64,000 bases of DNA, from positions 2,768,001-2,832,000 of the forward strand of contig NZ_CP058595.1 of assembly GCF_013402795.1 (NCBI RefSeq). The letters are read 5' to 3'. This DNA comes from Costertonia aggregata. GTDB lineage: Bacteria; Bacteroidota; Bacteroidia; Flavobacteriales; Flavobacteriaceae. Within the stretch, counting starts at the first letter, position 1, and each line of letters begins with the position of its first letter. Positions 37,996 to 57,818 of the stretch are shown piece by piece. Both the position numbers and the translations under genes were made by a program. Below the pieces are notes generated by a model, which was not told the DNA's origin, did no database searches, and saw only the letters and a list, made by a program, of their open reading frames with translations.

Positions 37996-40812
37996 ATGAG
38001 ATTTACATATTGGCTTTCGCATATTATTGTTTTCTCACTATTTTTTGCACACCACGAGTTTTTAAAAGCACAGGAAATGCCTCCTGTTCAGAATTTTTAT
38101 CCTAAAGATTATCATGCTGAAAATCAAAATTGGGCCATTTCCCAATCTTCTAACAAACTTATTTATGTAGCCAATAGTAAGGGCTTATTAGAGTACAATG
38201 GGGCTGATTGGGGACTTTACCCATCACCAAATGAGTCAATACTACGCTCTGTTAAAGTAGTCGACAACCGTATTTACACGGGCTGTTTTATGGAGTTTGG
38301 ATATTGGGAGAAAAATAAAAAAGGTACGCTTTGTTATACATCACTTTCCCAGCAAATCGGTATTGAATTAATCGAAGACGAAGAGTTTTGGAATATTATA
38401 CATGTTGAAGATTGGATAGTGTTTCAATCTCTAAAGCGTATCTATGTCTATAACATAAAAGAAGGTTTGGTGAGTACAATAGACTCTGATAGTACGATTA
38501 CTAAAATTTTTAAGGTCGGGGGCGATATTTATTTCCAAAGGATAAACAAAGGTATTTTTAAGATAGAGTATGGCATGGACTCATTGGTATTGGATGCTGA
38601 TGTAGTAAAAAATGATGAAGTCATCAATATTTTTGAAAACGGGAAAGAGAAATTAATTCTTACCCAGGACAATGGTTTTTATAGTTGGAAAGATACACTG
38701 CTAACAGCCTCTGAAATGGCCTCGAACGATTTTCTAAAATCGGTAAGTTTTTATGATGGCATACAATTAACCGATAACAGTTTTGTTCTAGGAACTATAT
38801 CTAATGGCTTAATATACTTAAACGAAAACCGGGAAGTTTTATACACGATAAACCAGAACAAGGGCTTACCCAACAATACGGTTTTATCGGTTTTTGAGGA
38901 TGCTGAAAAAAATATATGGCTTGGGCTTGATAATGGCATAAGCTATATAAATATCAATGCTCCCATAAGGGTCTACAATGACAATAAGGGAATTTTAGGT
39001 AGTGTTTATACATCTGCCGTTTATAAAAATAATTTGTATTTAGGAACTAATCAAGGGCTATTTTATAAAGAACTGGTAAACTCGGAAGAGTTTATTTTTA
39101 TCAAAGGTACGCAGGGGCAGGTTTGGAGCCTGAGCGAAATAGATGGGACTTTGTTTTGTGGCCATAATTCGGGTACGTTCATCGTTGATGGTAATACTGT
39201 AGATAAAATAGCGAATATTCAAGGAACTTGGGGGATTTCAAAATTAGATGAAGACTCGAATACCCTACTGCAAGGAAATTATGATGGGCTGTATGTATTG
39301 GAGAAAACGGACACTTCTTTCAAACTAAAAAACAAGATTGAGGGATTTGATAATTCATCAAGGTATTTTGAAAAGTTAGGTAGCAAGATTTTTGTTAATC
39401 ATGAATACAATGGCGTTTTTGAATTGGATGTTGATAGTTCTTTTACTAAAGTCAAAAACGTCATTATTGATAATTCCATCAAAGGGTCTAACTCGGGCAT
39501 TGTAAAATACAACGAACAACTACTGTATTCTTACAAAAAAGGAATTTTTGAATATAGTACCCAAAAGAAAGAATTTGTCAAAGATAGTTTCCTAAGTCAG
39601 GCATATACCGAAGATGAATATGAATCGGGAAAATTAATCTTTAACAAGAAAGATAATATTTTGTGGATTTTCACGAATTCAAACATAAGTTACGTTTCCC
39701 CTGCAGGCCTTAGCAATACTCCAAAAATAAAAAGTATACCGTTAACAAAGGAAATACGAAAAGGTATTCTTGGGTATGAAAATATTACCAAGTTAAATGA
39801 TAATGATAAATATTTAATCGGTACAACATCTGGCTATTTTACCGTTGATGTGGGTAAGCTTATAGTGAAGGATTTTGAAATTCATATTGCCAAAATAAAA
39901 AATAGCAGCAATAAGAACGAAAAATTACTTCATGACAAAATTTTAGAAGAAAATTTCGATAGCAACGATAACAATCTTGAATTTTCATATTATGTTCCTG
40001 AATACAATAAGTATTTGGTTACTTACTATCAATCTAAACTTGAAGGGATTTATGATGATTGGAGCACATGGTCAAAAAGTCCCAATGTAGTTTTTAAAAA
40101 CTTGCCATTTGGGGAATATACATTTAAGGTTAGGTCAAAAATAGGTGATACGATATCAAAAAATACGGCATCTTATTCATTCACGATTGAAAAACCATGG
40201 TATATATCAAATATAATGATAGCAATTTACATCTTGTGTGTTTTATTGTTTTCGTTCCTCATGCATACTATCTACAAACGGCATTATAGGAAGCAACGTG
40301 AAAAGCTAGTATATAGAAACAAAAAGGAAATGGAGCTGGCCAAACTTCAAAATGAAAAAGAGATAATAAGAATCAAAAATGAAAAACTAGAATTGGAGTT
40401 TAAAGGTAAGAGCAAGGAGTTGGCGGTGTCGACCATGAGCATCATCAAGAAAAATGAATTACTGATTAAAATAAAAGAAGAGCTCAATACTGTAGAGGAT
40501 ACGAATTCAATTGAACCGGTAATACATATTATAGACCAAAATCTCAAGCAGAATAACAACTGGGAACTTTTTCAAGAAGCATTCAACAATGCTGATAGCG
40601 GATTTTTAAAAAAAATTAAAACTTTGCACTCAACCTTATCGCCTAATGACCTCAAGTTGTGTGCTTATTTACGTTTGAATTTATCGTCTAAAGAAGTAGC
40701 ACAGTTACTTAATATATCGCCTAGAAGTGTTGAAATTAAGCGGTATAGACTGCGAAAAAAGTTAAATTTAAAGCACGAGGACAATCTCGTAAACTATATA
40801 TTGGAGTTATGA
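37996..40812 (+). CDS. Membrane-spanning one-component regulator (propeller-Y_Y_Y-TM-LuxR HTH)
   Basis: 938 residues: signal peptide about 1-25 (ends LKAQ), a periplasmic two-bladed propeller region (about 30-640) with repeats such as KNIWLGLDNGISYI, a Y_Y_Y domain near 658-730, one membrane helix near 735-760, a coiled coil rich in Lys/Glu and a C-terminal LuxR-type HTH (about 880-938: LSPNDLKLCAYLRLNLSSKEVAQL). There is no kinase or receiver domain, so the signal passes directly from a periplasmic sugar sensor to DNA. As first gene of the glucan cluster it is the likely activator, sensing oligosaccharides released in the periplasm. Confidence 0.88.
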   Translation: MRFTYWLSHIIVFSLFFAHHEFLKAQEMPPVQNFYPKDYHAENQNWAISQSSNKLIYVANSKGLLEYNGADWGLYPSPNESILRSVKVVDNRIYTGCFMEFGYWEKNKKGTLCYTSLSQQIGIELIEDEEFWNIIHVEDWIVFQSLKRIYVYNIKEGLVSTIDSDSTITKIFKVGGDIYFQRINKGIFKIEYGMDSLVLDADVVKNDEVINIFENGKEKLILTQDNGFYSWKDTLLTASEMASNDFLKSVSFYDGIQLTDNSFVLGTISNGLIYLNENREVLYTINQNKGLPNNTVLSVFEDAEKNIWLGLDNGISYININAPIRVYNDNKGILGSVYTSAVYKNNLYLGTNQGLFYKELVNSEEFIFIKGTQGQVWSLSEIDGTLFCGHNSGTFIVDGNTVDKIANIQGTWGISKLDEDSNTLLQGNYDGLYVLEKTDTSFKLKNKIEGFDNSSRYFEKLGSKIFVNHEYNGVFELDVDSSFTKVKNVIIDNSIKGSNSGIVKYNEQLLYSYKKGIFEYSTQKKEFVKDSFLSQAYTEDEYESGKLIFNKKDNILWIFTNSNISYVSPAGLSNTPKIKSIPLTKEIRKGILGYENITKLNDNDKYLIGTTSGYFTVDVGKLIVKDFEIHIAKIKNSSNKNEKLLHDKILEENFDSNDNNLEFSYYVPEYNKYLVTYYQSKLEGIYDDWSTWSKSPNVVFKNLPFGEYTFKVRSKIGDTISKNTASYSFTIEKPWYISNIMIAIYILCVLLFSFLMHTIYKRHYRKQREKLVYRNKKEMELAKLQNEKEIIRIKNEKLELEFKGKSKELAVSTMSIIKKNELLIKIKEELNTVEDTNSIEPVIHIIDQNLKQNNNWELFQEAFNNADSGFLKKIKTLHSTLSPNDLKLCAYLRLNLSSKEVAQLLNISPRSVEIKRYRLRKKLNLKHEDNLVNYILEL

Positions 40813-44000: not shown

Positions 44001-44277
44001 GGGACCTTTTGATTATCATAGGGATTTCAACTTAACATACCCAGTGCAATTAATGTTGGATTTATCTACTACCCTAGGCAAACCGGATTGGTTCATTCTA
44101 CCAAGCACGCAAATTGGCATTCGGGGTACATGGCGATCTTTAAACGAGTTCTCACCTCGCTATTCCCCTAATAATGCTCTTGAATTCGCAGCTGCTCCCA
44201 TCATAAGTCCTGTAGGGTTCGGTAATGGCAGTGAATGGGAAATCATGACATATATACATATCAATATTGGGAAATAA
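41083..44277 (+). CDS. Clan-A glycosidase fused to a putative outer-membrane beta-barrel
   Basis: 1064 residues. Signal peptide 1-22 or so (ends FGQA). Residues about 25-400 form a (beta/alpha)8-type glycosidase with acid/base Glu172 in LLGNENNYG and nucleophile Glu277 in MFTEFGADAY, as in GH2-like TIM barrels; the exact GH family cannot be fixed by eye. From about 430 to 1064 the chain switches to many alternating amphipathic strands with tight turns (FNWYGQAAAMG, FGGDIRMIYKKYKLQYTQ) and ends in a beta strand IMTYIHINIG, as in outer-membrane barrels. It would anchor the enzyme in the outer membrane and may form a pore. First gene of the enzyme operon; ten bases before the next start. Confidence 0.75.
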   Translation: MDTIQKQLLKLTIFLFTIIAFGQANKVSVVNNENGIKLVVNGEDFMINGMNWDYIPIGTNTVNAAFWKKSDDIIKAGLDTEMSLLKNMNVNVIRQYTGVPAKWIKYIYQNYGIYTMLNDSFGRYGLTLDGVWTPVTDYNNPRTQEFLLAEIDKLVKEYKDTPGLLMYLLGNENNYGLFWAGAETEDFPDGQEKIDAVGELRGRPMYRLMNEASKRIKAMDTLHPVAICNGDVLFIDIIADECEDVDIYGTNTYRGVSFGDMFQVVKDKLNKPIMFTEFGADAYNTVKNAEDQKMQAYYMVNNWKEIYQNAAGLGKAENSLGGFTFQFSDGWWKAGFDDRKDADTHQTEATWNGGGYTLDLAYEGANNMNEEWFGICAKGATNPRGLYDLYPRAAYYALKEAHQLNPYGEGVNLDFVNNHFNNINLMDAVLRARGDKAALNGEQAKLLRVSNLQAKLSTFSTGGSLITTPQNADLDNPNTFPNQLGFDHMQSYFVGIEGNPASNMRAEVNFNVVGNVAQNPINEIFYENRARPITVSTPEGEVPLVDNNRVAVYQAEFEWNAKEFDLRGFYRTGHYHWGYEGDFFGLYPEANYGPNLDIYNGEILGAEVDGKGVLKGLKAAIGPQLWWGANPTMLFKYKKHIGKFDITGIYHRDFETEIIFDENGRRVLDANQLRSGVVPPWPTERATLAVEREFGKFGVMLGGIWAGSPLNGTSFQDVRGTPGNYVVFEDRIQASDNWGGKVKFTYEGGKFNWYGQAAAMGLIANGGADQTMTFTGWKLRDTGSGNQVNALSGFTFSTGNFQIAPNFLWQKPLVGAIPQDVEGPGRLRNIIDDPFSVRWNRETTAGEILLTYDPTPGTWMYEWDNDRSEDAKFAMNLGFVYRHLPTTMDAHIGFLADRSIFSFPNSAPAQDLWEVHSRIVSKLGPDFGMIGNFYYGNGQGNGDSERLIKRFGGDIRMIYKKYKLQYTQKINDWGPFDYHRDFNLTYPVQLMLDLSTTLGKPDWFILPSTQIGIRGTWRSLNEFSPRYSPNNALEFAAAPIISPVGFGNGSEWEIMTYIHINIGK

Positions 44278-44287
44278 AAAGAAAAAA

Positions 44288-45721
44288 ATGAAAAATATAA
44301 AACATACTAACATACAATTCATACTTTTTTTGAGCCTGTGTATTGTTATTTTTTCAGGTTGTGAAAGAGAATTTTCCGACGAAGTAAAGTTCGCTAAGTT
44401 TCCATCAAATGGAGATGTTTTTATTGATGCTTTTGCTGGGTTGGATTATTTTCCTTTTGTGGATGGTGGCGCCGACCCCGAAGCATTCAGCGTGGTGACG
44501 GATGAGGTTTTTTCAGGAACCTCCGCTATTAGATTTGATGTGCCTGCTTTCGGAAACGGATTTGTTGGAGCCTCGTTTAGTGCTACAGGTGCAAGAGATC
44601 TTTCAGGTTTTGATGCGCTTACGTTTTATGCAAAAGCATCTCAAGCTGCTGATATTAATGAGATTGGTTTTGGTATCGAGGGTAGCACGGCCAATAAATT
44701 TCAAGTTACGCTTCAGAATTTGGCCATATCTACCAAATGGGAGAAATATGTAATTCCGATACCAGATCCTTCCAAATTGATAAATCAAACAGGTTTGTTT
44801 TGGTTAGCGGAAGGAGCTGAAAATGAGAATGATGAAAATGGGTTTGTCATATGGTTCGATGAAATAAAATTTGAAAAACTGGGTACCGTGGCACAGCCAA
44901 GGCCAGCTATATTCTTAGGTGAGGAGTTGGAAGTGCAAACCTTTACGGGTTCTGTAATCAATTTGAACGGTCTTACACAAACTTTTAATTTAGGGTCGGG
45001 TGTTAATAAAACGGTTATTGTGGCACCCTCATATTTTGAGTTTACATCCTCTGACCCAGATATCGCAAGAGTGGATGAAAGGGGTATGATTTCAATTTTA
45101 GGTTCTGGGTTTGCTGAGGTAACGGCTATATTGGGAGGAGTAAAGGCACAAGGTTCTTTGAGTTTGGAATCATTGGGAACGTTTGCAACTGCACCAATAC
45201 CTACAAGAAATCCATCAAATGTAATATCTATTTTTAGTGACGCATATACTAACGTTCCTGTAGATTTTTTCAATGGCTTTTTTGGCGGTCAAACTACTAC
45301 CGGAGGTACTCTGGACATAAGTGGGGACAATGTGATTCTATATGAAAACTTAAATTTCGTCAGTACCGAGTTTACCAACCCTACTATAAACGCCTCACAA
45401 ATGACACACTTTCATGTTGATATTCAGGTGAATGAAGCTCTTGAGCCTGGAGATACCATAAGGGTAGAATTACTTGATTTTGGCGGTGATAATGCATTTG
45501 GAGGAGGAAATGATAGTGGTGGTTCTGTAACTTTTACCAATACAGAACTCGAAAGTAGGGCATGGGTAAGTTTGGATATACCCCTTACCAATTTTACAGG
45601 TCCTGCAGCGGGCGGGGCGTTCAATGGGCTGAACAGTACCACAAATATAGCACAGGTTACTTTTGCTTCTGGCAACGTGTCGACCATATTTGTGGATAAT
45701 ATGTATTTCTACAGTGAGTAA
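44288..45721 (+). CDS. Lipoprotein with two carbohydrate-binding-like domains and an Ig-like domain
   Basis: 477 residues from the ATG at 44288 (an in-frame TTG at 44267 overlaps the previous gene and is less likely). Lipobox FSGC with Cys25 followed by acidic ERE residues, a surface-export type signal. Domains: a CBM11/CIA30-like sandwich (about 40-205, DLSGFDALTFYAKA, ending VIWFDEIKFE), a Big_2-like Ig domain (about 215-295, VDERGMISILGSGFAEVTA) and a second sandwich (about 305-477, ending STIFVDNMYFYSE). No catalytic motif; likely a surface glycan-binding protein for the GH16/GH17 enzymes nearby. Confidence 0.75.
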   Translation: MKNIKHTNIQFILFLSLCIVIFSGCEREFSDEVKFAKFPSNGDVFIDAFAGLDYFPFVDGGADPEAFSVVTDEVFSGTSAIRFDVPAFGNGFVGASFSATGARDLSGFDALTFYAKASQAADINEIGFGIEGSTANKFQVTLQNLAISTKWEKYVIPIPDPSKLINQTGLFWLAEGAENENDENGFVIWFDEIKFEKLGTVAQPRPAIFLGEELEVQTFTGSVINLNGLTQTFNLGSGVNKTVIVAPSYFEFTSSDPDIARVDERGMISILGSGFAEVTAILGGVKAQGSLSLESLGTFATAPIPTRNPSNVISIFSDAYTNVPVDFFNGFFGGQTTTGGTLDISGDNVILYENLNFVSTEFTNPTINASQMTHFHVDIQVNEALEPGDTIRVELLDFGGDNAFGGGNDSGGSVTFTNTELESRAWVSLDIPLTNFTGPAAGGAFNGLNSTTNIAQVTFASGNVSTIFVDNMYFYSE

Positions 45722-45749
45722 TCAACACAACAAAAGATTTAAAAGGAAA

Positions 45750-46583
45750 ATGATGAATAGAGAAAATAAAGAACAGTTTAGAATCTTGGTAGTTGCCTTG
45801 CTATCATTTTGTACAGTTGGCTGCGCAACAGATGATACACAACGAGTTGTCAACTTTACCGAACTCACCCTTCAAGAAGAGTTTGATGTCGACGGAGCTC
45901 CGAACGCCTCAGTTTGGGGTTATGATATTGGAACTGGCGAAAATGGCTGGGGAAATCAAGAATTACAATACTATACCGATAGAACGGAGAATGTAACGGT
46001 ACAAAACGGAAAATTATTGATTACTGCCCGGCAAGAATCATTTGAAGGCTCTTCATATACATCTGCCAGATTGTTGACAAAAGACCTATTCGAGCAGCGA
46101 TATGGCCGTTTTGAAGCTCGTATACGGCTACCTTACGGCCAGGGGATTTGGCCGGCTTTTTGGATGTTGGGAGCCGATATAGACGATAATCCGTGGCCTG
46201 CTGCAGGAGAAATAGATATCATGGAATATCGTGGTCAAAACCCTACGGTATTGATAGGTAGTGTACACGGTCCAGGGTACAGTGCCGGTAATGCTATATC
46301 CAAGGAGTATACTTTAGAGAATGATCGCTTTGACACCGGATTCCACATATTCGGAATCGAATGGGCTCCCGAATATGTTAACTTTTACGTAGATGATGTG
46401 CTATATAATCAAATTACACCCGAAGATGTAACCGGGGAATGGGTATTTGATAAACCCTTTTTCATTTTGATGAATTTAGCCGTAGGAGGCACATTCGTAG
46501 GTTCGCCCAACGCTGAAACGGTTTTCCCACAAACGATGATTGTAGACTATGTTAGGGTATACAAAAACACCAACGCCAATTAA
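45750..46583 (+). CDS. GH16 endo-beta-1,3-glucanase (laminarinase) lipoprotein
   Basis: 277 residues from the ATG at 45750. Lipobox TVGC with Cys25. GH16 domain with WGYDIGTGENGWGNQELQYY, the catalytic GEIDIMEYRG (nucleophile Glu154, helper Asp156, acid/base Glu159), IWPAFWMLG, and HIFGIEWAPEYVNFYVDD; these are laminarinase-type features. It cuts beta-1,3-glucan chains internally at the cell surface or in the periplasm. Length is that of a single catalytic domain without added binding module, which is supplied by the flanking lipoproteins. Confidence 0.92.
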   Translation: MMNRENKEQFRILVVALLSFCTVGCATDDTQRVVNFTELTLQEEFDVDGAPNASVWGYDIGTGENGWGNQELQYYTDRTENVTVQNGKLLITARQESFEGSSYTSARLLTKDLFEQRYGRFEARIRLPYGQGIWPAFWMLGADIDDNPWPAAGEIDIMEYRGQNPTVLIGSVHGPGYSAGNAISKEYTLENDRFDTGFHIFGIEWAPEYVNFYVDDVLYNQITPEDVTGEWVFDKPFFILMNLAVGGTFVGSPNAETVFPQTMIVDYVRVYKNTNAN

Positions 46584-46610: not shown

Positions 46611-49600
46611 ATGGAACATTTAATAAAGAAGGCAAAACTCATCGCAATTTTAATTTGTGCCATATCCTTTCATGGCTGTGAGGATGATGATGTCATTTTA
46701 CCAAAAGTCATAGCGGATTTTACATTTACGCTAAACGAAGATACGGGTACCGTAACTTTTTTGAATACTTCAGAGGATGCCAGTAAGTACGTGTGGGATT
46801 TTGGAGATGGTACAACTTCCAGTGAAATTAACCCCATAAAAACATTTAACGTAAGCGGAACCTACACCATTACTCTAGAGGCATTTAATGTTTCGGGTGC
46901 TTCGCAAACTTTTGAGGACGAAATTGTTATCCTCATAAAGGAAAAGATTGCTTTGCCTATAACATTTGATAGTCCTACAGTAGATTACAGCGCAACTGTT
47001 TTTAGTGGTGCTTCGTTCAATATAGTGATGAACCCCGATGTTTCCGGTTCTAACGATACTGCCTCGAATGTAGGGGAAATAACAAATAATGGGAACGCTT
47101 TTGAAGGTTTCTTTTTTAATTTGGGACTTCCTGTGGACTTCACGGTAAATAAGACCATTCAAATGAATTTTTGGTCCGAAACCACTGTAGATTTGTTATT
47201 GAAATTAGAGGATGGCACAGCTGCTGATATTGAAGTAACTGCAAGCCACGGCGGTACAGGTTGGGAATCCGTTACTTTTGATTTTTCGTCTGACGCAAGC
47301 TACTCCACTTTTACATTTTTTGTTGATGGTCCTGGCAGAAGTACTGGTACTTTTTATATTGATGACATTCAACAAATCGTAACACCAACTGCGGAAAGTG
47401 GATGTGCTGATACACCAATAGGTGCTACTTCACTTCCTTTGGATTTTGAGAGCTGCGATACTTTTCCGGTATCGGATAATTTTGGGTCTGGTATAACTTC
47501 TGAGTTGGCTCAGAATCCGGATAAAATAGGAATCAACACTTCAGATTTTGTATTACGTGTAGATAAGCCAGCAGGTTCGGATTTCTTTGCGGGAATCCAA
47601 AATACATTTGCCGATAACTTTGATTTGACTACTACCAACACGTTTAAGGTCAAAGTATATTCTACCAAGTCAAATGTAGTGTTCAGATTTGAGTTGGCCT
47701 TGAACCCCCAAACAGATCCTGTTACTGGAAATCCGGCACCCGTTTTTGCGACTATTCCAAACGCTAACGAATGGACTGAACTTGAAGTCATGTTCACTGG
47801 CTTGCCTGGAGGGCCGATGGCATACAATCAATTGGTAATTAAGCCTGACAACGGTACTGACACTCCTATAACGGAAGACGGTACATATTATATTGACGAC
47901 ATAAGGCTCGAAACCCCGGGCGGGAGTACAGGTTTTGACGGAGGTTTGATTACCAATGGGGATTTTGAGAATGGTGGTGATTCTTGGACAGGGAATGCCT
48001 TGAACGTGCAATCGGAAGGAGGTAATGGTTTTAATTTTGCAAACGTAGAAACTGCGGTTCCAGCTGAACCATTTCAAGTGAATCTTAGTCAAGTCTTGGA
48101 AATTGTTCAGGGTACAAATTATATTTTAACCTTTGATGCATCTTCTGATCGTGCTCGAACCTTGATTGCGGGTATAGGATTAAACGAAAGTCCTTTCACA
48201 AATACGGCGCCAGAAGTTAATCTCACCACAGATACTCAAACCTTTACGTTGCAATTGGCAGCAAATGATTTTGGAAACGTTAACAGTCGAGTATTATTTG
48301 ATATGGCGGGTGCCGTAGGAACTGTTGTGATCGATAATGTATCATTGGTTGAAGGTGGGGATGGTAGCGATACCAATGGTAATAGCGTCGATACCGAAAA
48401 TCCTATTATTACCCTAAATGGAGACGCTACGGTTAACCTTACGGTAGGGGATGCGTTTACAGACGCCGGGGCCACTGCTACAGACAATGTTGATGGTGAT
48501 ATATCTGGAGATATTATTGTTGCAGGTGATATTGTGGATATCAATACAGCTGGTACTTATGTGATAACTTATAATGTAAGCGATGCTGCAGGTAATGCTG
48601 CCGCCGAAGTAACAAGAACCGTTATTGTCGAAGAAGACACTAATGGTGTTTTTGATGATGGGTTGTTGACCAATGGTGATTTTGAAAATGGTGGTGCTTC
48701 TTGGATTGGGAACGCTCTTAACGTGATTACCGATGGGGGTAATAGCTTTAATTTGGCAAATGTTACAACAGCAATTCCAAGTGAACCCTTTCAGGTAAAC
48801 TTAAGCCAAGTAGTAGAAATTGTTCAAGGTTCTAATTATATCTTGTCTTTTGAGGCGTCATCTGATCGTGCTCGTACAATATTGGCCGGTATAGGACTCA
48901 ATGCGGCTCCATTTACCAATACGAACCAATCGGTCAATTTAACGACCGATACCCAAACATTTACATTACAACTTTCGGCTAGCGATTTTGGAGGTGTTAA
49001 TAGCCGTGTTTTATTTGACATGGCAGCCGAGGTAGGCACCGTGGTAATTGATAACGTATCATTGGTTTTAGACGGGGGAAGTTCTGGAGGAAGTGGTGGT
49101 TGCACGGGAACATTGGTGGCAGCTACAACACTTCCGGTAGATTTTGAAGGTTGCGAAACATTTTTGGCATCACAGAACTTTGGAGCTGGTCTGACTTCCG
49201 AGTTGGTGGCCAATCCATTTAAGACTGGGATTAATACTTCTGATTTCGTATTACAGGTAAATAAACCTTCCGGGTCTGATTTCTTTGCGGGAATCCAAAA
49301 TACGTTCCCCACTAATTTTGACCTGACCACTACAGATACATTTAAAGTGAAAATATACTCAACTAAAGCAAATGTAGTATTCAGATTTGAGTTGGCCTTG
49401 AACCCACAAACGGATCCCGTTACTGGAAATCCTGCACCCGTTTTTGTAACGATTCCCAACGCCAATGAATGGACAGAGGTCGAAGTTACATTTACAGGTT
49501 TGCCCGGTGGGCCTACGGCGTATAATCAATTTGTTATAAAACCCGATAATGCAGTGGGTGATCCCGCTATTACAGTTGATGGTACCTATTATATAGATGA

Positions 49601-49616
49601 TATAGTACTTGAATAA
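46611..49616 (+). CDS. Large glycan-binding lipoprotein: PKD, mirrored CBM-like modules, DUF5011-like Ig
   Basis: 1001 residues, lipobox FHGC with Cys23 followed by EDDD (surface-export type). Modules: PKD about 33-110 (YVWDFGDGTTS), module A about 115-255, B1 264-434, C1 442-580 (LITNGDFENGGDSWTGNALN, CBM4_9-like), a DUF5011/HYR-like Ig 595-673 (TAGTYVITYNVSDAAGN), C2 681-819 and B2 831-1001. B and C each occur twice in mirror order around the Ig domain. No catalytic residues or T9SS tail. PKD-CBM lipoproteins of this kind accompany laminarin loci; it probably captures the polysaccharide at the surface. Confidence 0.82.
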   Translation: MEHLIKKAKLIAILICAISFHGCEDDDVILPKVIADFTFTLNEDTGTVTFLNTSEDASKYVWDFGDGTTSSEINPIKTFNVSGTYTITLEAFNVSGASQTFEDEIVILIKEKIALPITFDSPTVDYSATVFSGASFNIVMNPDVSGSNDTASNVGEITNNGNAFEGFFFNLGLPVDFTVNKTIQMNFWSETTVDLLLKLEDGTAADIEVTASHGGTGWESVTFDFSSDASYSTFTFFVDGPGRSTGTFYIDDIQQIVTPTAESGCADTPIGATSLPLDFESCDTFPVSDNFGSGITSELAQNPDKIGINTSDFVLRVDKPAGSDFFAGIQNTFADNFDLTTTNTFKVKVYSTKSNVVFRFELALNPQTDPVTGNPAPVFATIPNANEWTELEVMFTGLPGGPMAYNQLVIKPDNGTDTPITEDGTYYIDDIRLETPGGSTGFDGGLITNGDFENGGDSWTGNALNVQSEGGNGFNFANVETAVPAEPFQVNLSQVLEIVQGTNYILTFDASSDRARTLIAGIGLNESPFTNTAPEVNLTTDTQTFTLQLAANDFGNVNSRVLFDMAGAVGTVVIDNVSLVEGGDGSDTNGNSVDTENPIITLNGDATVNLTVGDAFTDAGATATDNVDGDISGDIIVAGDIVDINTAGTYVITYNVSDAAGNAAAEVTRTVIVEEDTNGVFDDGLLTNGDFENGGASWIGNALNVITDGGNSFNLANVTTAIPSEPFQVNLSQVVEIVQGSNYILSFEASSDRARTILAGIGLNAAPFTNTNQSVNLTTDTQTFTLQLSASDFGGVNSRVLFDMAAEVGTVVIDNVSLVLDGGSSGGSGGCTGTLVAATTLPVDFEGCETFLASQNFGAGLTSELVANPFKTGINTSDFVLQVNKPSGSDFFAGIQNTFPTNFDLTTTDTFKVKIYSTKANVVFRFELALNPQTDPVTGNPAPVFVTIPNANEWTEVEVTFTGLPGGPTAYNQFVIKPDNAVGDPAITVDGTYYIDDIVLE
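47400..47912 (+). repeat. Module B1 coding repeat (paired with 49101-49613)
   Basis: The coding sequence for residues 264-434 is repeated as residues 831-1001. Both carry the same stretch VFRFELALNPQTDPVTGNPA and YYIDDI; DNA similarity is also high, with mostly third-position differences around 47693-47750 and 49389-49446. This points to a duplication within the gene. Confidence 0.8.
47934..48350 (+). repeat. Module C1 coding repeat (paired with 48651-49067)
   Basis: Residues 442-580 are repeated as 681-819: NGDFENGG, EPFQVNLSQV, LTTDTQTFTLQL, VNSRVLFDMA and VGTVVIDNVSLV occur in both. CBM4_9-like beta sandwich pattern. Confidence 0.8.
48651..49067 (+). repeat. Module C2 coding repeat
   Basis: Second copy of the CBM4_9-like module (residues 681-819), directly after the DUF5011-like Ig domain. 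See the C1 entry for shared motifs. Confidence 0.8.
49101..49613 (+). repeat. Module B2 coding repeat
   Basis: Second copy of module B (residues 831-1001), forming the C-terminus. It closes the mirrored B-C-Ig-C-B order. Confidence 0.8.
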
Positions 49617-49711: not shown

Positions 49712-52700
49712 ATGTCCAAAAAAGATATCCATATAGGTGGTTCGAGAATAAAATCTGCCAAAAAAGAGGTCGTAGGAGAAATTGTTCAGTTTGAAAATGA
49801 AAATTATTATAAGATTTCAAACTACGATGCCATGCGTTCATTTTTTATGAGTATCGTAAGCCCCTCCAATCATTGGATATTCATTTCAAGTAATGGAGGT
49901 CTTACTGCTGGTAGGCAAAACTCTGAATCTGCCCTGTTTCCCTACTATACAGATGATAAAATAGCAGAATCGTCGAGTATCACAGGGAGTAAAACCATGC
50001 TCCATATCCATAAAGAAGAGAAGACTTATTTATGGGAACCTTTTTCATACAATTATATAGGTATTTATAATATTAGTAGAAACCTTTATAAGAATACCTA
50101 TGGTAATAAAGTAGTATTTGAAGAAATAAACGAAGACTTGGGTTTGACCTTCAGATATCACTGGAATTCTAGCGGTAAATACGGTTTTGTGAAAAAATCT
50201 ACACTCATAAATAATGGCAATTCAGCTATTGGAATTACTGTTTTGGATGGTATTCAGAATATTATGCCTCATGGCGTGGACCCAAACTTGCAAAATGCCA
50301 GCAGTAATTTGGTGGATGCTTATAAAAAAAATGAGCTGGAAGAAAAATTGGGGTTAGGTATTTATGCCCTTAGTGCAATAATAGTTGATAGGGCAGAACC
50401 AAGTGAAGCCCTAAAGTCTACTACGGTATGGTCTGCCGGGGTAGAAAATTGTACTTATTTAATCTCTTCCTTACAACTGGAAAATTTTAGAAATGGAAAA
50501 AATATTGAACAAGAAGAAGACGTCAAAGCAGAAAAGGGAGCGTATTTTATTTGTACAGACATTACGATAGAGCCCAACACAAAAAAGAATTGGATTATTG
50601 TAGCAGAGGTAAATCAATCTATAGTCGATATTGGTAAAATATCTAATTTGATACGAACAGAGAATGACCCTTATAATCATGTCTTAGACGATGTAGAAAC
50701 CGGTTCCAAAAAATTGTTGGCGCTTAATTTCGCATCCGATGGTATACAGATGACCGCAGACGACTTGAGAAATACAAGGCATTTTTCCAACACGCTTTTC
50801 AATATAATGCGTGGTGGAATATTTGATAATAATTATCAAATAGAAAAACTGGATTTTTCAAAATATGTACAGAAATCGAATAAAAATGTCCATGATCGGA
50901 AAAGGGAAATTTTAGATGGGCTACCAAATCAATTTCCATTAAACCATTTACAACAAATTGCGGCTACTGATAGTTGCAGTGACTTTAAAAGGCTCGCCTT
51001 TGAATATATGCCCTTAAGGTTCAGTAGAAGACATGGTGATCCCAGTAGGCCATGGAATAAGTTTTCAATCAACACCGAAAACGAAATAGGGGAGAAAATA
51101 TTGGACTATGAAGGTAACTGGCGTGATATTTTCCAGAACTGGGAAGCTTTGGCACATTCATACCCTGCTTTTATTGAAGGTATGATTCATAAATTCTTGA
51201 ATGCGACAACATTTGATGGTTATAATCCTTACCGTGTAACCAAGGACGGTTTTGATTGGGAGTCAGAGGAACCGGACAATCCTTGGTCATATATTGGGTA
51301 CTGGGGAGATCACCAAATTATTTATCTCTTAAAATTTTTGGAGTTTATGGAGCAGCATTATCCAAGAAAACTCAGTGAATATTTTAATGAGAAAATCTTT
51401 GTTTACGCTAATGTTCCCTACAAGATAAAAAGCTATCAAGATATTCTTACAAATCCTAAGGATACCATAGTTTTTGATGAAGATTTAGATAGAAAAATAA
51501 GGGAAGACCGTTTAAAGTCAGGTGCCGACGCTGCTTTGCTGACTAATGAAAATAAAGTCATTCATCACGTAAACTTGTTAGAGAAACTTTTGGCTACATC
51601 ATTGGCAAAAGTGTCCAATTTTATACCCGAGGGTGGTATTTGGATGAATACACAGCGACCAGAATGGAATGATGCGAACAATGCTCTCGTCGGCAATGGT
51701 GTCTCTATGGTCACACTGTGCTACCTGAGAAGATTCCTAAACTTTTTTGAAGAAATGGTTGAAAATGCCAAAGGCGATGAATATCATATTTCAAAAGAGT
51801 TAATTGAATTTTTTAAAAAGATAAGGATCACTTTGACCCAAAATATATCCATACTCAGTGGCACAATCCCGGATAAAGCAAGAAAGAAGGTTCTGGACGG
51901 TCTTGGAAATGCCGGAAGTGAGTATCGAAGGAAAATATATAAAAATGGCTTTAGCAACAATACGGACATTATTACCAAAAGTGATGTGTTGGAGTTTATT
52001 CGGATAACGCTTCAATACTTTGATCATAGTATAGATGCGAATAAGCGATCAGATGATCTATTCCACTCTTATAATTTGATGACTTTGGAGGGAGATAACG
52101 AAATCTCAATTTCCCATCTATCGGAAATGCTTGAAGGCCAAGTGGCCGTTTTGAGTTCTGGTTACATTTCTTGCAAGGAAGCATTAAAAGTTTTGGATGC
52201 CCTAAAAAGCAGCTCGCTATTTAGGCATGACCAATATAGCTATATATTATACCCTGATAAAAAGCTTCCCAAGTTCGTTGAAAAAAATAATATACCATCT
52301 AATACGATCAAAAAATCGGAATTGGTGCAAGAGCTCTTGAAAAGTAATGATACGCAAATAGTAGAAACCGATAATCAAGGAAATTACCATTTTAATGCGT
52401 CTTTTAATAACGCGGAAAGTTTAAAAAAAGCTTTGTTGAAATTACCCGAAAAGTATAATAATCTAGTTGAAAAGGATAGGCTTCTTTTGTTACGGTCTTT
52501 TGAAGCCGTTTTTAATCACAAGGCATTTACAGGACGTTCCGGAACATTCTTCGGTTACGAAGGCTTGGGCTCAATTTATTGGCACATGGTCTCAAAGTTG
52601 CTTCTAGCAGTGCAAGAAAACTGCATAAGAGCGATTCAAGAAGGGGAAAGCAACGAAACTATAAGTAGACTATTTGAGCATTATTATGAAATCAACGAAG

Positions 52701-53167
52701 GTATTGGGGTACACAAATCACCAGAATTATATGGGGCATTTCCAACCGATCCCTATTCACATACTCCTGCTGGTAAAGGTGTACAACAACCCGGTATGAC
52801 AGGGCAAGTGAAAGAGGACATTTTAAGCCGATTCGGGGAACTCGGAGTTTTTGTTGAGCAAGGTAAACTTGTGTTCAAACCATACTTATTGCGAAAGAGT
52901 GAATTTATCAAAAATCCATCAACCTTTGAGTATATAAAAGTAAGTGGCGAGAAAGAACAACTTTTTTTGGAAAAGGACTCCTTAGGATTTACCTATTGCC
53001 AAGTTCCTATAATTTATACACTCTCCAATACCCAATGCTTACATGTTCACTTTAATGATAATACCAAAAAACAATTTGATCATTTACATCTTGATACGGT
53101 AACCAGCCAAAATCTTTTCGAAAGAACAGGGGCGATAAAACATATGATAGTGTACCTACAACTATAA
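49712..53167 (+). CDS. GH94/GH149-like beta-1,3-glucan phosphorylase
   Basis: 1151 residues with no signal peptide, so cytosolic. Features of the GH94 clan: GIQNIMPHGVDPNLQN, FSRRHGDPSRPWNKFSINTE, DYEGNWRDIFQNWEALA, the catalytic-acid motif EWNDANNAL (Asp654), a Gly-rich GRSGTFFGYEGLGSIYWH, and the phosphate-loop-like HTPAGKGVQQPGMTGQ (1017-1032). The length is far above GH94 laminaribiose/cellobiose phosphorylases and fits GH149 beta-1,3-oligoglucan phosphorylases. It would release glucose 1-phosphate from imported oligosaccharides. Family number is by inference; the phosphorylase fold is well supported. 95 bases after the previous gene. Confidence 0.8.
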   Translation: MSKKDIHIGGSRIKSAKKEVVGEIVQFENENYYKISNYDAMRSFFMSIVSPSNHWIFISSNGGLTAGRQNSESALFPYYTDDKIAESSSITGSKTMLHIHKEEKTYLWEPFSYNYIGIYNISRNLYKNTYGNKVVFEEINEDLGLTFRYHWNSSGKYGFVKKSTLINNGNSAIGITVLDGIQNIMPHGVDPNLQNASSNLVDAYKKNELEEKLGLGIYALSAIIVDRAEPSEALKSTTVWSAGVENCTYLISSLQLENFRNGKNIEQEEDVKAEKGAYFICTDITIEPNTKKNWIIVAEVNQSIVDIGKISNLIRTENDPYNHVLDDVETGSKKLLALNFASDGIQMTADDLRNTRHFSNTLFNIMRGGIFDNNYQIEKLDFSKYVQKSNKNVHDRKREILDGLPNQFPLNHLQQIAATDSCSDFKRLAFEYMPLRFSRRHGDPSRPWNKFSINTENEIGEKILDYEGNWRDIFQNWEALAHSYPAFIEGMIHKFLNATTFDGYNPYRVTKDGFDWESEEPDNPWSYIGYWGDHQIIYLLKFLEFMEQHYPRKLSEYFNEKIFVYANVPYKIKSYQDILTNPKDTIVFDEDLDRKIREDRLKSGADAALLTNENKVIHHVNLLEKLLATSLAKVSNFIPEGGIWMNTQRPEWNDANNALVGNGVSMVTLCYLRRFLNFFEEMVENAKGDEYHISKELIEFFKKIRITLTQNISILSGTIPDKARKKVLDGLGNAGSEYRRKIYKNGFSNNTDIITKSDVLEFIRITLQYFDHSIDANKRSDDLFHSYNLMTLEGDNEISISHLSEMLEGQVAVLSSGYISCKEALKVLDALKSSSLFRHDQYSYILYPDKKLPKFVEKNNIPSNTIKKSELVQELLKSNDTQIVETDNQGNYHFNASFNNAESLKKALLKLPEKYNNLVEKDRLLLLRSFEAVFNHKAFTGRSGTFFGYEGLGSIYWHMVSKLLLAVQENCIRAIQEGESNETISRLFEHYYEINEGIGVHKSPELYGAFPTDPYSHTPAGKGVQQPGMTGQVKEDILSRFGELGVFVEQGKLVFKPYLLRKSEFIKNPSTFEYIKVSGEKEQLFLEKDSLGFTYCQVPIIYTLSNTQCLHVHFNDNTKKQFDHLHLDTVTSQNLFERTGAIKHMIVYLQL

Positions 53168-53186: not shown

Positions 53187-54464
53187 ATGAAAAACTATTT
53201 TAAATCAATCGGTTATATCATAGTGGTATTAGTGGTTTTATCATGTAAAAAGAATACCAAAACAGAAAGTAAAATAACCGTAGTGAAGCAAAAATCGATT
53301 ATAAGCGCAAAAAATATATTGGGCAATCCTGATTACATGGCCATGTCCTATGGTGGATATCGTCATATAAACCATGATATAGAACCTACGATAGCCGAGT
53401 TGAAAGAAGATATGAAAATATTAGCTGCGATGGGGGTCAAAATAATTCGCACCTATAAAGTGCATTTACCTCATGCCGCTAATGTTTTGAAGGCGATAAG
53501 AGAATTAAAGAAAAAAGATTCCAGTTTTGAAATGTACGTAATGTTGGGTGCATGGATCGATTGTAAAAACGCTTGGACAGATTTGGAACCTGACCATAAC
53601 AAAGAGAGCGAACGTAATGCGATTGAAATCAAGGAAACGGTTAGACTGGCAAAAGAATATCCAGATGTGGTAAAAGTAATTGCTGTGGGTAATGAAGCTA
53701 TGGTGAAATGGGCAACCAATTATTATGTGCGGCCATGGGTCGTTTTAAAATGGGTAAATCATCTCCAAGAGCTTAAAAGTTCAGGCGAATTATCAAAAGA
53801 TTTATGGATAACCAGCTCTGATAATTTTGCATCATGGGGAGGTGGCGGTAAAGAATACCATGTGGAAGACCTTAATGAATTAATTAATGCTGTTGATTTT
53901 TTATCGGTACATACCTATCCTATGCATGACACGCATTACAATCCACAGTTTTGGAAAGTCCCAAAAGCTGAGGAAAGTTTATCGGATATAGAAAAAATAG
54001 ATGCTGCAATGCTACGGGCAAAAAAGTATGCCATGGCACAATATGATAGCGTGAAACGTTACATGAAAGGATTGGGAATCGATAAACCCGTTCACATTGG
54101 AGAAACAGGTTGGGCAAGCACTTCCAACGGTTATTATGGTCCCGAAGGCTCCAAAGCTACTGATGAGTATAAAGAGGCTTTGTACTACCACCATATGAGA
54201 AATTGGACCAATGATAATGGTATTTCTTGCTTCTATTTTGAAGGTTTTGATGAGCAATGGAAGGATGCCGCCAACACTTTAGGTTCAGAAAATCACTTTG
54301 GTTTGATCAATCTTAAAAGTGAAGCCAAGTTTGCACTTTGGGAATTAGTGGATAGTGGAACTTTTGAGGGTCTTACGCGTGATGGAAATCCGATTACCAA
54401 AACTTATGGAGGAGTAAGGGAAGAATTAATGAAAGAAGTTCTGGTACCACCTTTGGAAAATTAA
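53187..54464 (+). CDS. GH17 beta-1,3-glucanase-like lipoprotein
   Basis: 425 residues: lipobox VVLSC with Cys20 followed by KK, unlike the acidic tail of the surface lipoproteins and so possibly periplasm-facing. The GH17 barrel has acid/base Glu170 in IAVGNEAM and nucleophile Glu306 in HIGETGWAS, with FDEQWKD near the end. It has insertions relative to the two cytosolic GH17 domains downstream and belongs to a different branch. Probable role: cutting laminarin oligosaccharides in the periplasm. 19 bases after the phosphorylase. Confidence 0.88.
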   Translation: MKNYFKSIGYIIVVLVVLSCKKNTKTESKITVVKQKSIISAKNILGNPDYMAMSYGGYRHINHDIEPTIAELKEDMKILAAMGVKIIRTYKVHLPHAANVLKAIRELKKKDSSFEMYVMLGAWIDCKNAWTDLEPDHNKESERNAIEIKETVRLAKEYPDVVKVIAVGNEAMVKWATNYYVRPWVVLKWVNHLQELKSSGELSKDLWITSSDNFASWGGGGKEYHVEDLNELINAVDFLSVHTYPMHDTHYNPQFWKVPKAEESLSDIEKIDAAMLRAKKYAMAQYDSVKRYMKGLGIDKPVHIGETGWASTSNGYYGPEGSKATDEYKEALYYHHMRNWTNDNGISCFYFEGFDEQWKDAANTLGSENHFGLINLKSEAKFALWELVDSGTFEGLTRDGNPITKTYGGVREELMKEVLVPPLEN

Positions 54465-54524: not shown

Positions 54525-56906
54525 ATGGTAAATGAAATTGTAATACCCAAAGATAAAGTACCGATGGGGCAAAAAATAGCCTTTGGCGTAGGAATGTTTG
54601 CCAATCAAATGTTTCCCGCCATTTTGGGAATCTTTATGGTCGTTTTGGTACAGGATTTAGGATTTCCGGGCTGGATGTGGGGTGTTTTGTTTTTTCTTCC
54701 AAGAGTATTTGATTCCATTACTGACCCGATAATGGGTTTTATTTCAGATAATACAAAATCCAAATGGGGTAGACGAAGGCATTATGTGTTTCTCGGTGCC
54801 CTAATCATGGGCATTTCGTTTGTGATTATGTGGCAATTATATCGTGAAAACGGTGTAGATTATAATTTCACCTATTTTTTGCTATGGTCTTTTGTGTTTT
54901 ATCTGGGCCTAACAATCTTCAGTGTTCCTTACGTAGCCATGGGTTATGAGATGAGCAATGACTTTCACGAACGTACAGATATTATGGCGATAGCGCAATG
55001 GATAGGGCAGTGGGCATGGGTCATTGCTCCTTGGTTTTGGGTGTTCATGTACGATCAAGATTGGTTTCCATCAGCGGATATCGCCACAAGGGAACTAGCT
55101 ATTTATGTTGGTATCGCTTGTATGGTATGCGCTATGGTTCCAGCAATTTTTATTAAAAGCAAATCAACCATTAATGAGCCGTATGCACCTCTAAATATAA
55201 GAACGATTGGGGGTAGCCTCAAAAAGATTGTGGATGGTTTTAAGGAAGCTTTTCAATCCAGACCGTTCCGACAACTTTGTATAGCTACTTTTTTCATCTA
55301 CAATACATTCTACACCATCGCGAGTTTCTCGTTCTTCATCGTGGTGTATTATCTTTTTGGAGGCGATGCCGGTGCGGCTGGTATCTGGCCAACCTTATTT
55401 GGTAGTGTAGGTGCTTTGGCGACTACATTCATAGTAATACCTATTATCACCAAAATGTCCAAGAAAATGGGGAAAAAGAGAGCATTTATTGTTTCTCAAG
55501 CCATATCTATTTTGGGGTATGTATTACTTTGGTTTTTGTTTATTCCCGGTAAACCCTATATGTTTTTATTCGCATTGCCGTTTTTCTCGTTTGGTATTGG
55601 AAGTTTGTTCACATTGATGATGTCAATGACCGCAGATGTTATCGATTTGGATGAATTAAATACAGGACAACGAAGAGAGGGTGTCTTTGGAGCCATTTAT
55701 TGGTGGATGGTAAAATTTGGTTTTGCCATTGCCGGTCTTTTGACGGGTACTATAATGTCAGTCGTTGGTTTTGACCCAAATGCAGCTGTACAGCCAGAAG
55801 GTGCAATTTTTGGATTAAGGGCATTCTATTCCGGTTTCCCGATAATAGGGACTTTAGTGGCCATTTATTTTATGTGGAATTATGATCTCACTGAGGAAAG
55901 GGCTAACGAAATAAGCAAGGAGTTAGAAAAGAAGAAGGCTAGTAAAGCAGCAGGGTATGGGAAAATGGCTTCAATTTCAAATATTGATTTGAATGATTTA
56001 TCGGAAAAAGAGATTGTAGAGAAATTCTCTGATTTTTTTACGACAAAACTAGATTTCAAGGAAATTTCTCCACAAGCTTTACAATTAGAATTCGATACGG
56101 TATTTAAAAAAGGAATGCACGGTATTTGTTTTAGTGCTTATGAAAGTGGCCAAGAACCTGGTGATGATCTCACAGACAATCAAATAAGAAGGCGTTTGGA
56201 AGTTTTAAAAGGCCGCGCTCAATGGATACGTATATTTTCATGTACTACGGGGCATGAAAAAATACCTAGAATTGCCAAAGAAATGGGTTTCAAAACTATG
56301 GTGGGGGCTTGGATAAGTAATAAAACGGTTCAAAATAAATCGGAAATTAATAGTCTCATAAAATTGATTAAAGATGGACATGTTGATATTGCTGCCGTTG
56401 GTAATGAAGTACTTTATAGGGAAGAGTTAAATGAAGAGACCATTATTGATTACATAGAGCAAGTTAAAAAAGAGGCGGGATACATTCCTGTGGGCTATGT
56501 GGATGCTTACTATGAGTTTGCGAACCGACCCAAATTAACTGATGCCTGTGATGTTGTTTTGGCAAATTGTTATCCGTTTTGGGAAGGTGCCGATATAAAA
56601 ATGGCAGGGTTTCATCTTCAGGAAATGTATCATAGAACGGTTGCCGCTGCAAAAGGTAAGAATGTTATCATCACAGAAACAGGTTGGCCAAGTATAGGAC
56701 AAAAAGTTAACAAGGCCGATCCCACTACCGATAATGTGAAAGAATATTTCGTAAAATCTCATCTATGGGCAAAAAAGGAAGGGGTCTCCTTGTTTTATTT
56801 TTCTTCTTTTGATGAGTCATGGAAAATACATTCTGAGGGTTGGGCCGGCACTTCGTGGGGACTTTGGGATAGCAAAGAAAAGTTTAAGTATAATTCCAAC
56901 TTGTAA
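54525..56906 (+). CDS. GPH-type sugar symporter fused to a GH17 glycosidase
   Basis: 793 residues. Residues about 10-455 are a 12-helix MFS transporter of the glycoside-pentoside-hexuronide type, with the signature RVFDSITDPIMGFISDN, KWGRRRHYV and DVIDLDELNTGQRREG. A charged linker (about 456-520) leads to a complete GH17 domain (about 525-785) with acid/base Glu628 in AAVGNEVLYR, nucleophile Glu718 in IITETGWPS and FSSFDESWKI. GPH termini are cytoplasmic, so the enzyme would sit at the inner mouth of the transporter. There is no frameshift or stop at the join. The free GH17 gene follows after three bases and is its paralogue. Confidence 0.9.
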   Translation: MVNEIVIPKDKVPMGQKIAFGVGMFANQMFPAILGIFMVVLVQDLGFPGWMWGVLFFLPRVFDSITDPIMGFISDNTKSKWGRRRHYVFLGALIMGISFVIMWQLYRENGVDYNFTYFLLWSFVFYLGLTIFSVPYVAMGYEMSNDFHERTDIMAIAQWIGQWAWVIAPWFWVFMYDQDWFPSADIATRELAIYVGIACMVCAMVPAIFIKSKSTINEPYAPLNIRTIGGSLKKIVDGFKEAFQSRPFRQLCIATFFIYNTFYTIASFSFFIVVYYLFGGDAGAAGIWPTLFGSVGALATTFIVIPIITKMSKKMGKKRAFIVSQAISILGYVLLWFLFIPGKPYMFLFALPFFSFGIGSLFTLMMSMTADVIDLDELNTGQRREGVFGAIYWWMVKFGFAIAGLLTGTIMSVVGFDPNAAVQPEGAIFGLRAFYSGFPIIGTLVAIYFMWNYDLTEERANEISKELEKKKASKAAGYGKMASISNIDLNDLSEKEIVEKFSDFFTTKLDFKEISPQALQLEFDTVFKKGMHGICFSAYESGQEPGDDLTDNQIRRRLEVLKGRAQWIRIFSCTTGHEKIPRIAKEMGFKTMVGAWISNKTVQNKSEINSLIKLIKDGHVDIAAVGNEVLYREELNEETIIDYIEQVKKEAGYIPVGYVDAYYEFANRPKLTDACDVVLANCYPFWEGADIKMAGFHLQEMYHRTVAAAKGKNVIITETGWPSIGQKVNKADPTTDNVKEYFVKSHLWAKKEGVSLFYFSSFDESWKIHSEGWAGTSWGLWDSKEKFKYNSNL
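56097..56879 (+). other. GH17 domain of the transporter fusion
   Basis: Coding bases for residues about 525-785 of the symporter fusion. It aligns without large gaps to the next gene: GMHGICFSAYESGQEPGD against GMHGLCFSIYEDGQQPGD, VDIAAVGNEVLYR in both, YVDAYYEF in both, IITETGWPS in both. Confidence 0.88.
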
Positions 56907-56909
56907 GAG

Positions 56910-57818
56910 ATGTCATATAGAAAAGATACCGATTATATTGTAAATACTGGAAATTTTGATAACTATTTAGGAATAGATTTTGATGTAATTAGGATAGATG
57001 AGCTTAGACATCTTTGGTTGAAGACACTCCGAAACGGAATGCATGGCCTTTGTTTTAGTATATACGAAGATGGTCAACAACCTGGGGATGTTATAACTGA
57101 AGAACAGGTCGTACGACGTGTTCAAATTATAAAACCCTATACCAAATGGGTTCGCTCTTTTTCATGCATTGAAGGTAATGAACATGTAGCCAGAGTGGCA
57201 CACAAAAACGGACTCAAAACACTGGTAGGTGCTTGGTTGGGAAAAGATGAAAAACTCAATGAGCAAGAGTTGAAAGCACTGATCGCTTTGGGAAAAGAAG
57301 GTTGTGTTGATATTGCCGCGGTAGGGAACGAAGTACTGTATAGAAACGACTTGTCCAAAGAGCGATTGTTAAGATATATCAATCGTGTGAAAGCAGCATT
57401 ACCAAATATACCTATTGGATACGTTGACGCCTATTATGAATTTACCCAACATCCTGATGTAGTTGATGCTTGTGATGTAGTGCTTTCCAATTGTTATCCT
57501 TATTGGGAAGGTTGTCCCCATGAATATTCCCTGAACCATATGCAACGAATGTTTGGTCAAGCCACGGATGCTGCCAAAGGTAAAAAGGTAATCATAACGG
57601 AAACAGGATGGCCAAGTAAAGGCGAAAACTTTAAAGGTGCTATCACTTCCGAGGATAATGCCATGAAATATTTTATAAAGACTCAGGTTTGGGCCGCTAA
57701 GGAAAATATAGAACTCTTTTATTTTTCTTCATTTGATGAATCTTGGAAAATTGGTGATGAGGGTGATGTTGGTGCATACTGGGGTCTATGGGACAAATAT
57801 GAAAACTTGAAATTTTAG
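56910..57818 (+). CDS. Cytosolic GH17 glycosidase
   Basis: 302 residues with no signal peptide: a single GH17 barrel of standard domain length. Acid/base Glu141 in AAVGNEVLYR, nucleophile Glu231 in IITETGWPS, then LFYFSSFDESWKI and WGLWD. Clearly a tandem paralogue of the transporter-borne domain. It could hydrolyse or transglycosylate imported beta-1,3-oligosaccharides, or supply chain lengths suited to the phosphorylase (inference). Last gene of the cluster; three bases after the preceding stop, so translationally coupled. Confidence 0.9.
   Translation: MSYRKDTDYIVNTGNFDNYLGIDFDVIRIDELRHLWLKTLRNGMHGLCFSIYEDGQQPGDVITEEQVVRRVQIIKPYTKWVRSFSCIEGNEHVARVAHKNGLKTLVGAWLGKDEKLNEQELKALIALGKEGCVDIAAVGNEVLYRNDLSKERLLRYINRVKAALPNIPIGYVDAYYEFTQHPDVVDACDVVLSNCYPYWEGCPHEYSLNHMQRMFGQATDAAKGKKVIITETGWPSKGENFKGAITSEDNAMKYFIKTQVWAAKENIELFYFSSFDESWKIGDEGDVGAYWGLWDKYENLKF

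Follow-up and report, generated by a model that had tools for sequence, protein, structure and literature searches.

A probable member of the known MFS-GH17 fusion family in a Costertonia aggregata laminarin locus, with transporter and GH17 halves that seem to have been exchanged in evolution

Introduction

Laminarin is one of the main carbon stores of the sea, and fusions of an MFS transporter to a GH17 domain are part of the uptake route of the organisms that degrade it. One such fusion, FbGH17B (FORMB_24740) of Formosa strain B, was described in 2018 and, in the passages of that report covered here, called common (Unfried et al., PMC6246565). Passages of a 2023 study likewise place at least one GH17-MFS fusion in most of the expressed variant-1 laminarin loci, gammaproteobacterial ones included (PMC10108472). 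With regard to the chemistry of GH17 enzymes, excerpts of a third report state that RmBgt17A requires Tyr102, Trp157, and Glu158 for transfer, that MlGH17B, which is 53% identical to FbGH17B, is a demonstrated beta-1,3-glucanosyltransglycosylase with all three residues (Tyr, Trp, and Glu), and that FbGH17B has Met in place of the RmBgt17A-type Tyr (PMC11005184). This kind of fusion is therefore already known.

Here we analyze a fused frame in a 64,000-nucleotide stretch of Costertonia aggregata DNA, which we refer to as the window. A first-pass annotation of this frame had stated that few symporter-glycosidase fusions are known, a statement overtaken by the 2018 publication and by the wide distribution reported in 2023 (PMC6246565 and PMC10108472, in the passages covered). 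A search of related genomes for the two-domain architecture, which the same annotation had proposed, found it intact in at least 26 of the 397 genomes sampled from the window's family, among the matches listed and with G087, G302, and G338 left out; together with the two papers, this rules out the fusion as a rarity. The window protein probably belongs to the known family of MFS-GH17 fusions in laminarin loci. Three points are new within the literature searched: a GH17 lineage that is found fused only in our samples, its apparent exchange from one transporter to another, and an aromatic group of domains that includes the window's.

Results

Architecture and integrity of the fused frame

Positions 54525..56906 form a single ATG-to-stop frame of 793 codons (Table 1), and the first-pass description of an uninterrupted frame encoding a GPH/MFS transporter followed by a GH17 domain with both catalytic glutamates holds in its exact coordinates, its domains, its predicted fold, and the presence of E628 and E718. 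When the tails of six unfused relatives are compared with those of five fused ones, several unfused transporters end at the linker or close to it. Unbroken fusions are found in 28 first-set loci (the window counted) and in 97 distinct fused proteins in total. A sequencing artefact is thus an unlikely source of the fusion, and these intact homologues speak against a frameshift between the halves, as they do against the possibility, raised at first pass, that GH17 domains of homologues are always encoded by separate genes. The set of 97 was drawn up without L120-L122 and L126, which are repeats, and without partial frames or identical proteins; L127 repeats L121, and L207, L208, L240, and L241 lie outside the analyzed sets.

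Frames of 820-1121 amino acids were considered as longer fusions with an extra domain. ORF analysis resolved them into separate genes in 16 of 19 genomes (20 were counted initially and 19 analyzed, G338 being left out), and the remaining three, L068, L074, and L077, are true fusions that belong to a second transporter lineage.

Table 1. Features of the fused frame and of the surrounding cluster, in window coordinates
Feature	Position	Strand	Remarks
LuxR-type propeller regulator, cluster head	37996..40812	+	Pfam Y_Y_Y, GerE, Reg_prop; putative role
GH16-like endo-glucanase, same cluster	45663..46583	+	PF00722 E 1.3e-26
GH149 beta-1,3-glucan phosphorylase	49712..53167	+	NF058639 1788.7 bits, cut-off 1150
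Secreted/lipoprotein GH17 (FbGH17A/MlGH17A type)	53187..54464	+	60 bases upstream of the fusion; PF00332 E 6.9e-5, under curated cut-off
GPH/MFS symporter half	54525..55940	+	about residues 1-472; 12 TM helices (authors' assignment), MelB-like
Variable linker	55941..56036	+	about residues 473-504; pLDDT <50 at 473-485
GH17 catalytic domain	56037..56903	+	about residues 505-793; Pfam, RmBgt17A alignment, fold match, column counts
Free GH17, 302 aa	56910..57818	+	starts 3 bases past the fused stop; no secretion signal by eye; groups with the free branch

Family, fold, and topology of the transporter half

Pfam MFS_2 matches residues 20-457 (E 6.4e-65, 219.8 bits against a cut-off of 27). The NCBIfam gph model TIGR00792 matches over its full profile (1-437 of 437) with 198.9 bits, below its curated cut-off of 231.35, so by this model the transporter half is a divergent GPH member, and the predicted fold and the Pfam match are what carry the GPH assignment. 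The best Foldseek matches of this half are MelB structures, with TM scores normalized to the target of 0.81-0.84 for ranks 1-4. Structures were predicted for the window protein and for 53 of 71 named plus-strand fused frames; the whole-chain model of the window protein has a mean pLDDT of 85.9 and a pTM of 0.62, and it does not fix the placement of one domain relative to the other.

We assigned 12 membrane spans to the model, counting helix 147-175 as one and leaving helix 225-244 as a helix of the central loop. Of the Lys/Arg residues in the segments between predicted spans, 30 face the same side as the N-terminus and 2 face the opposite side. Because the number of spans is even, and in line with this charge count, the GH17 half is predicted to lie on the cytoplasmic side. 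The first-pass proposal of cytoplasmic GPH termini with the enzyme on the inner face agrees with this model, which places the C-terminus away from the periplasm.

When the window's transporter half is compared with that of genome G125 in 30-residue blocks over residues 31 to 450, identity reaches 90% or more in 12 of the 14, indicating that the transporter half is intact too. An unfused transporter that is 90% identical to the window's is encoded at L123:12492-14063. It is the only match listed for that genome in the genome scan, and no other gene of the window's cluster was found within the 19 kb compared, so the substrate of the transporter is not fixed by its sequence.

The laminarin cluster around the fusion

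The fused frame lies in a cluster whose GH149, secreted GH17, and free GH17 genes bear out the beta-1,3-glucan context that had been suggested for it. The product of 53187..54464 has an N-terminus that looks, by eye, like a lipoprotein signal. Three further frames lie in the same cluster: 41083-44277 encodes 1064 amino acids with a partial GH2 TIM-barrel near the N-terminus as its sole match, 44267-45721 encodes 484 amino acids without a Pfam or NCBIfam match and has relatives in syntenic loci, and 46611-49616 encodes a 1001-amino acid protein with PKD, Ig-like, and CBM4_9 domains that perhaps binds glucan at the cell surface.

Other fused loci resemble this one. Among the 60 named fused loci whose upstream flank reaches 4.5 kb or more, 56 have a GH149 relative near the fusion (one very short match of 92 residues, in L201, included), and 56 have a relative of the secreted GH17; these GH17A relatives are 54-70% identical. 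A free GH17 gene lies within 400 bases downstream of the fusion in 61 of 68 named loci and, by the computed count, in 26 of the 28 first-set loci, or 27 with the window, which was scored as a miss through duplicate removal despite the gene at 56910. In many named loci, about 1.5 kb separates the secreted GH17 from the fusion, which is where GH30 lies in Formosa and Muricauda; a search of the window's genome with the PF02055 model alone gave no GH30 match.

Fold and active site of the GH17 half

Pfam Glyco_hydro_17 matches residues 713-790 (36.2 bits against a cut-off of 28.2). The best solved relative of the domain is RmBgt17A: residues 550-771 align to PDB 4wtp with an E-value of 1.3e-27, and Foldseek gives a TM score of 0.87 to 4wtp (normalized to 4wtp, 268 columns) and also 0.87 to 4wtr. 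In the alignment, E718 pairs with a position at which the active-site mutant 4wtr carries Ala. Neither E628 nor E718 varies among the homologues counted (28 fused, 89 free), and by analogy with the GH17 family the two would be the acid/base and the nucleophile.

Alignment and column counts identify Y631, W686, and E687 as the +1/+2 subsite residues of the window's domain. Trp and Glu are conserved in all 28 fused domains counted. The Tyr column varies across the 97 fused domains (Leu in 57, Met in 16, Tyr in 11, Phe in 6, His in 4, and Gln in 3), and Tyr is present in 84 of 89 free GH17 proteins. The window's domain is thus one of 17 fused domains with an aromatic +1 residue, the other 80 of the 97 being non-aromatic, and a single branch with a support of 98 splits the 17 from the 80. 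The Tyr/other trait requires 3 changes on the GH17 tree versus 9 on that of the transporters, the pattern that an exchange of halves would be expected to leave.

A GH17 lineage found fused only

A FastTree phylogeny of 97 fused and 161 free GH17 sequences (258 in all) is divided into the two kinds by a single branch with a support of 100 and none misplaced, and the same branch receives supports of 91 and 90 with fewer rows and with IQ-TREE. With a very distant outgroup, free GH17 sequences are nested among the fused ones, and the root is unsettled. The free rows were gathered beside transporter or GH17 matches, so that their sampling is not independent of locus type. Both the tree with a support of 91 and the tree of 100 transporters discussed below left out partial frames and L001-L003, which are copies of the window, and with them the window's free GH17; the latter was added for the column counts (28 fused and 89 free) and for the 258-row tree.

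A phylum-wide sample (395 genomes, of which 38 matched and 30 loci were kept) gave a support of 86 with one exception, L224/L239 in genome G457; four fused rows of this tree repeat the window, G197, G371, and G180. From these samples, the window's GH17 half appears to belong to a lineage that is found fused only, with G457 as one possible exception.

The fusion of G457 (L239:3881-6343) has 820 amino acids, and its GH17 half is nearest to a free GH17 (65%). Inspected by eye, this half has free-type residues at four of five diagnostic columns, and no further GH17 gene lies just downstream. It is perhaps a second origin of the fusion; placement of its GH17 on the fused side is not rejected (AU p 0.66).

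The 69 named fused proteins come from Flavobacteriaceae, Weeksellaceae, Cyclobacteriaceae, Saprospiraceae, Chitinophagaceae, and others, and from three betaproteobacterial records. The latter (L196, L198, and L206; two are MAGs) have a GC content of 68-69%, and their fusions suggest inter-phylum transfer. The viral contigs scanned held no relative of the fusion.

Discordant histories of the two halves

Between the window and G125, the transporter halves are 92% identical and the GH17 halves 49% identical, with the fall in identity at residues 450-480. The secreted and free GH17 proteins of the two loci are 77% and 73% identical, respectively, which is the similarity that the window's proteins show to those of other relatives. 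In the transporter tree, the window forms a clade with L034, L035, and L036 (support 100/99); a tree that unites the GH17 halves of these four is rejected (AU p 2.5e-53), as is the GH17 group of L036 when imposed on the transporter tree (p 1.4e-5). A single GH17 clade of L068, L074, and L077 is not quite rejected (AU p 0.056). These tests drew on 36 of the 97 fused proteins, and their p-values are optimistic in that the groups were picked after trees of the same data had been seen.

The pairwise identities of the transporter and GH17 halves correlate at 0.27 (n = 97), as compared with 0.88 between two halves of the transporter itself (0.77 in the 91 rows of the main lineage) and 0.72 inside the GH17 half. 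Restricted to the main lineage (91 rows), the between-half correlation is likewise 0.27 and lies above all 2000 permutations; therefore, the halves share some history. In a tree of 100 transporters, fused and unfused proteins are interleaved, with 18 label changes, at least 11 of which are forced by starred branches. The separate genes of the same loci have mutual correlations of 0.40-0.62 (57 loci), which indicates that the discordance is not peculiar to the two halves. As far as these sequences indicate, the domain boundary acts no differently from a boundary between genes in these loci, which are much reshuffled.

Between the window and G125, identity at third codon positions is 46% in the transporter half and 43% in the GH17 half. 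A recent recombination breakpoint was looked for at the DNA level, and none is seen at this near-equal divergence; any exchange is therefore old, and no breakpoint can be read from the DNA. Taken over the trees and identities, the GH17 half seems to have been swapped between transporter lineages in evolution. In the open-access literature searched, the name MFS-GH17 had no match, and nothing relevant to domain exchange was among the matches listed.

Discussion

The arrangement of the cluster leads us to the following model. The secreted GH17 and the GH16 would cut laminarin outside the inner membrane, and the GPH half would import the resulting laminari-oligosaccharides, its presumed substrate, together with a cation. 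At the cytoplasmic face, the GH17 half would process the incoming oligosaccharide by hydrolysis or by chain transfer; this processing would lower the amount of free imported substrate and could thereby be coupled to uptake, and the free GH17 encoded next to it and the GH149 phosphorylase would receive the products. That the imported sugar meets the enzyme at the inner face, which is the mechanism of the first-pass annotation, is likely under the predicted topology.

The readings of the fusion differ in what the tail would do to the sugar, if it does anything at all. FbGH17B, the sole fused member assayed in the literature searched, is an exo-beta-1,3-glucosidase on debranched laminarin in the passages covered (PMC6246565), and its +1 residue is of the non-aromatic kind common to 80 of the 97 fused domains. 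The window's domain could likewise be a plain exo-hydrolase that releases glucose at the transporter exit, a serious possibility that we place somewhat short of an even chance, given that the window has Tyr at this position, that it groups there with 16 other aromatic rows (branch support 98), and that its best solved relative, RmBgt17A, is a transferase. With a +1 residue that differs from that of FbGH17B, and with the aromatic rows set apart by a branch, the published hydrolase result might not extend to the window's group. The domain would instead be an importer-tethered beta-1,3-glucanosyltransferase if Y631, W686, and E687, which match the transfer residues of RmBgt17A and are also present in MlGH17B (excerpts of PMC11005184), function as they do there. 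Such an enzyme would disproportionate imported chains, so that the phosphorylase could still use their bond energy and the sugar would be trapped in longer chains, and the Tyr on which it depends is kept by 84 of the 89 free homologues. Residues alone are no proof of transfer, however: Trp and Glu are also present in all 28 fused domains counted, 6 of the 17 aromatic rows carry Phe, and MlGH17B forms beta-1,6 links according to the same excerpts, yet the window's genome has no PF02055 GH30. Nor does the aromatic type track with GH149, an association that we rejected since GH149 is in nearly all loci (9 of 9 aromatic loci have it nearby, as do 47 of the 51 others). We consider transfer by the fused domain possible, though closer to doubtful than to probable.

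A third reading dispenses with coupling and takes the fusion as a neutral operon accident, in which a stop was lost between neighboring transporter and GH17 genes. A free GH17 does lie close behind the transporter gene in many loci, and the fused L239, whose GH17 is nearest to a free one (65%) with no further GH17 just downstream, has the appearance of such an event. What makes an accident improbable is that one GH17 lineage was found fused only, across several Bacteroidota families and three betaproteobacterial records, and that a free paralogue is retained beside the fusion. Joining the transferase reading to the exchange of halves, we propose, tentatively and as something rather unlikely to hold in full, a symporter with a glucan transferase tail that would remake imported chains, the bond energy being saved for GH149, and whose tail would be exchangeable, such that transporters about 92% identical bear either the aromatic (transferase-like) or the Leu/Met (hydrolase-like) version, as in the window and G125. 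Pairs of this type, in which the transporters are nearly alike and the enzyme halves differ, amount to domain-swap experiments made by nature, and the split between aromatic and aliphatic +1 residues gives a direct prediction of transfer versus hydrolysis.

Compared with known systems, the transporter half shares its fold and family with MelB, to which it is 18-19% identical in the fold alignment, but the matched MelB chains lack a fused enzyme. The fusions of variant-1 laminarin PULs, from Bacteroidota and gammaproteobacterial MAGs with GH149, GH17, and GH30 loci, are the same fusion as the window's, although PMC10108472, in the passages covered, is without domain trees or an active-site comparison. 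MlGH17B of Muricauda lutaonensis, by its published description, has the aglycone-subsite Tyr, Trp, and Glu in common with both the fused and the free domains of the window; it is a free enzyme and a transglycosylase, whereas the window's domain is fused and is known from its sequence (PMC11005184, in the excerpts covered). The closest described system is FbGH17B, which has the same N-terminal MFS and C-terminal GH17 arrangement in the same type of locus with GH17A (PMC6246565, in the passages covered). In Formosa, judging by locus tags, GH17A and the fusion are separated by a GH30 gene, whereas the window has 60 bases between the two. Compared by published description rather than by alignment, FbGH17B has Met at the +1 position where the window has Tyr (PMC11005184, in the same excerpts), so that the window's copy has a different version of the active site.
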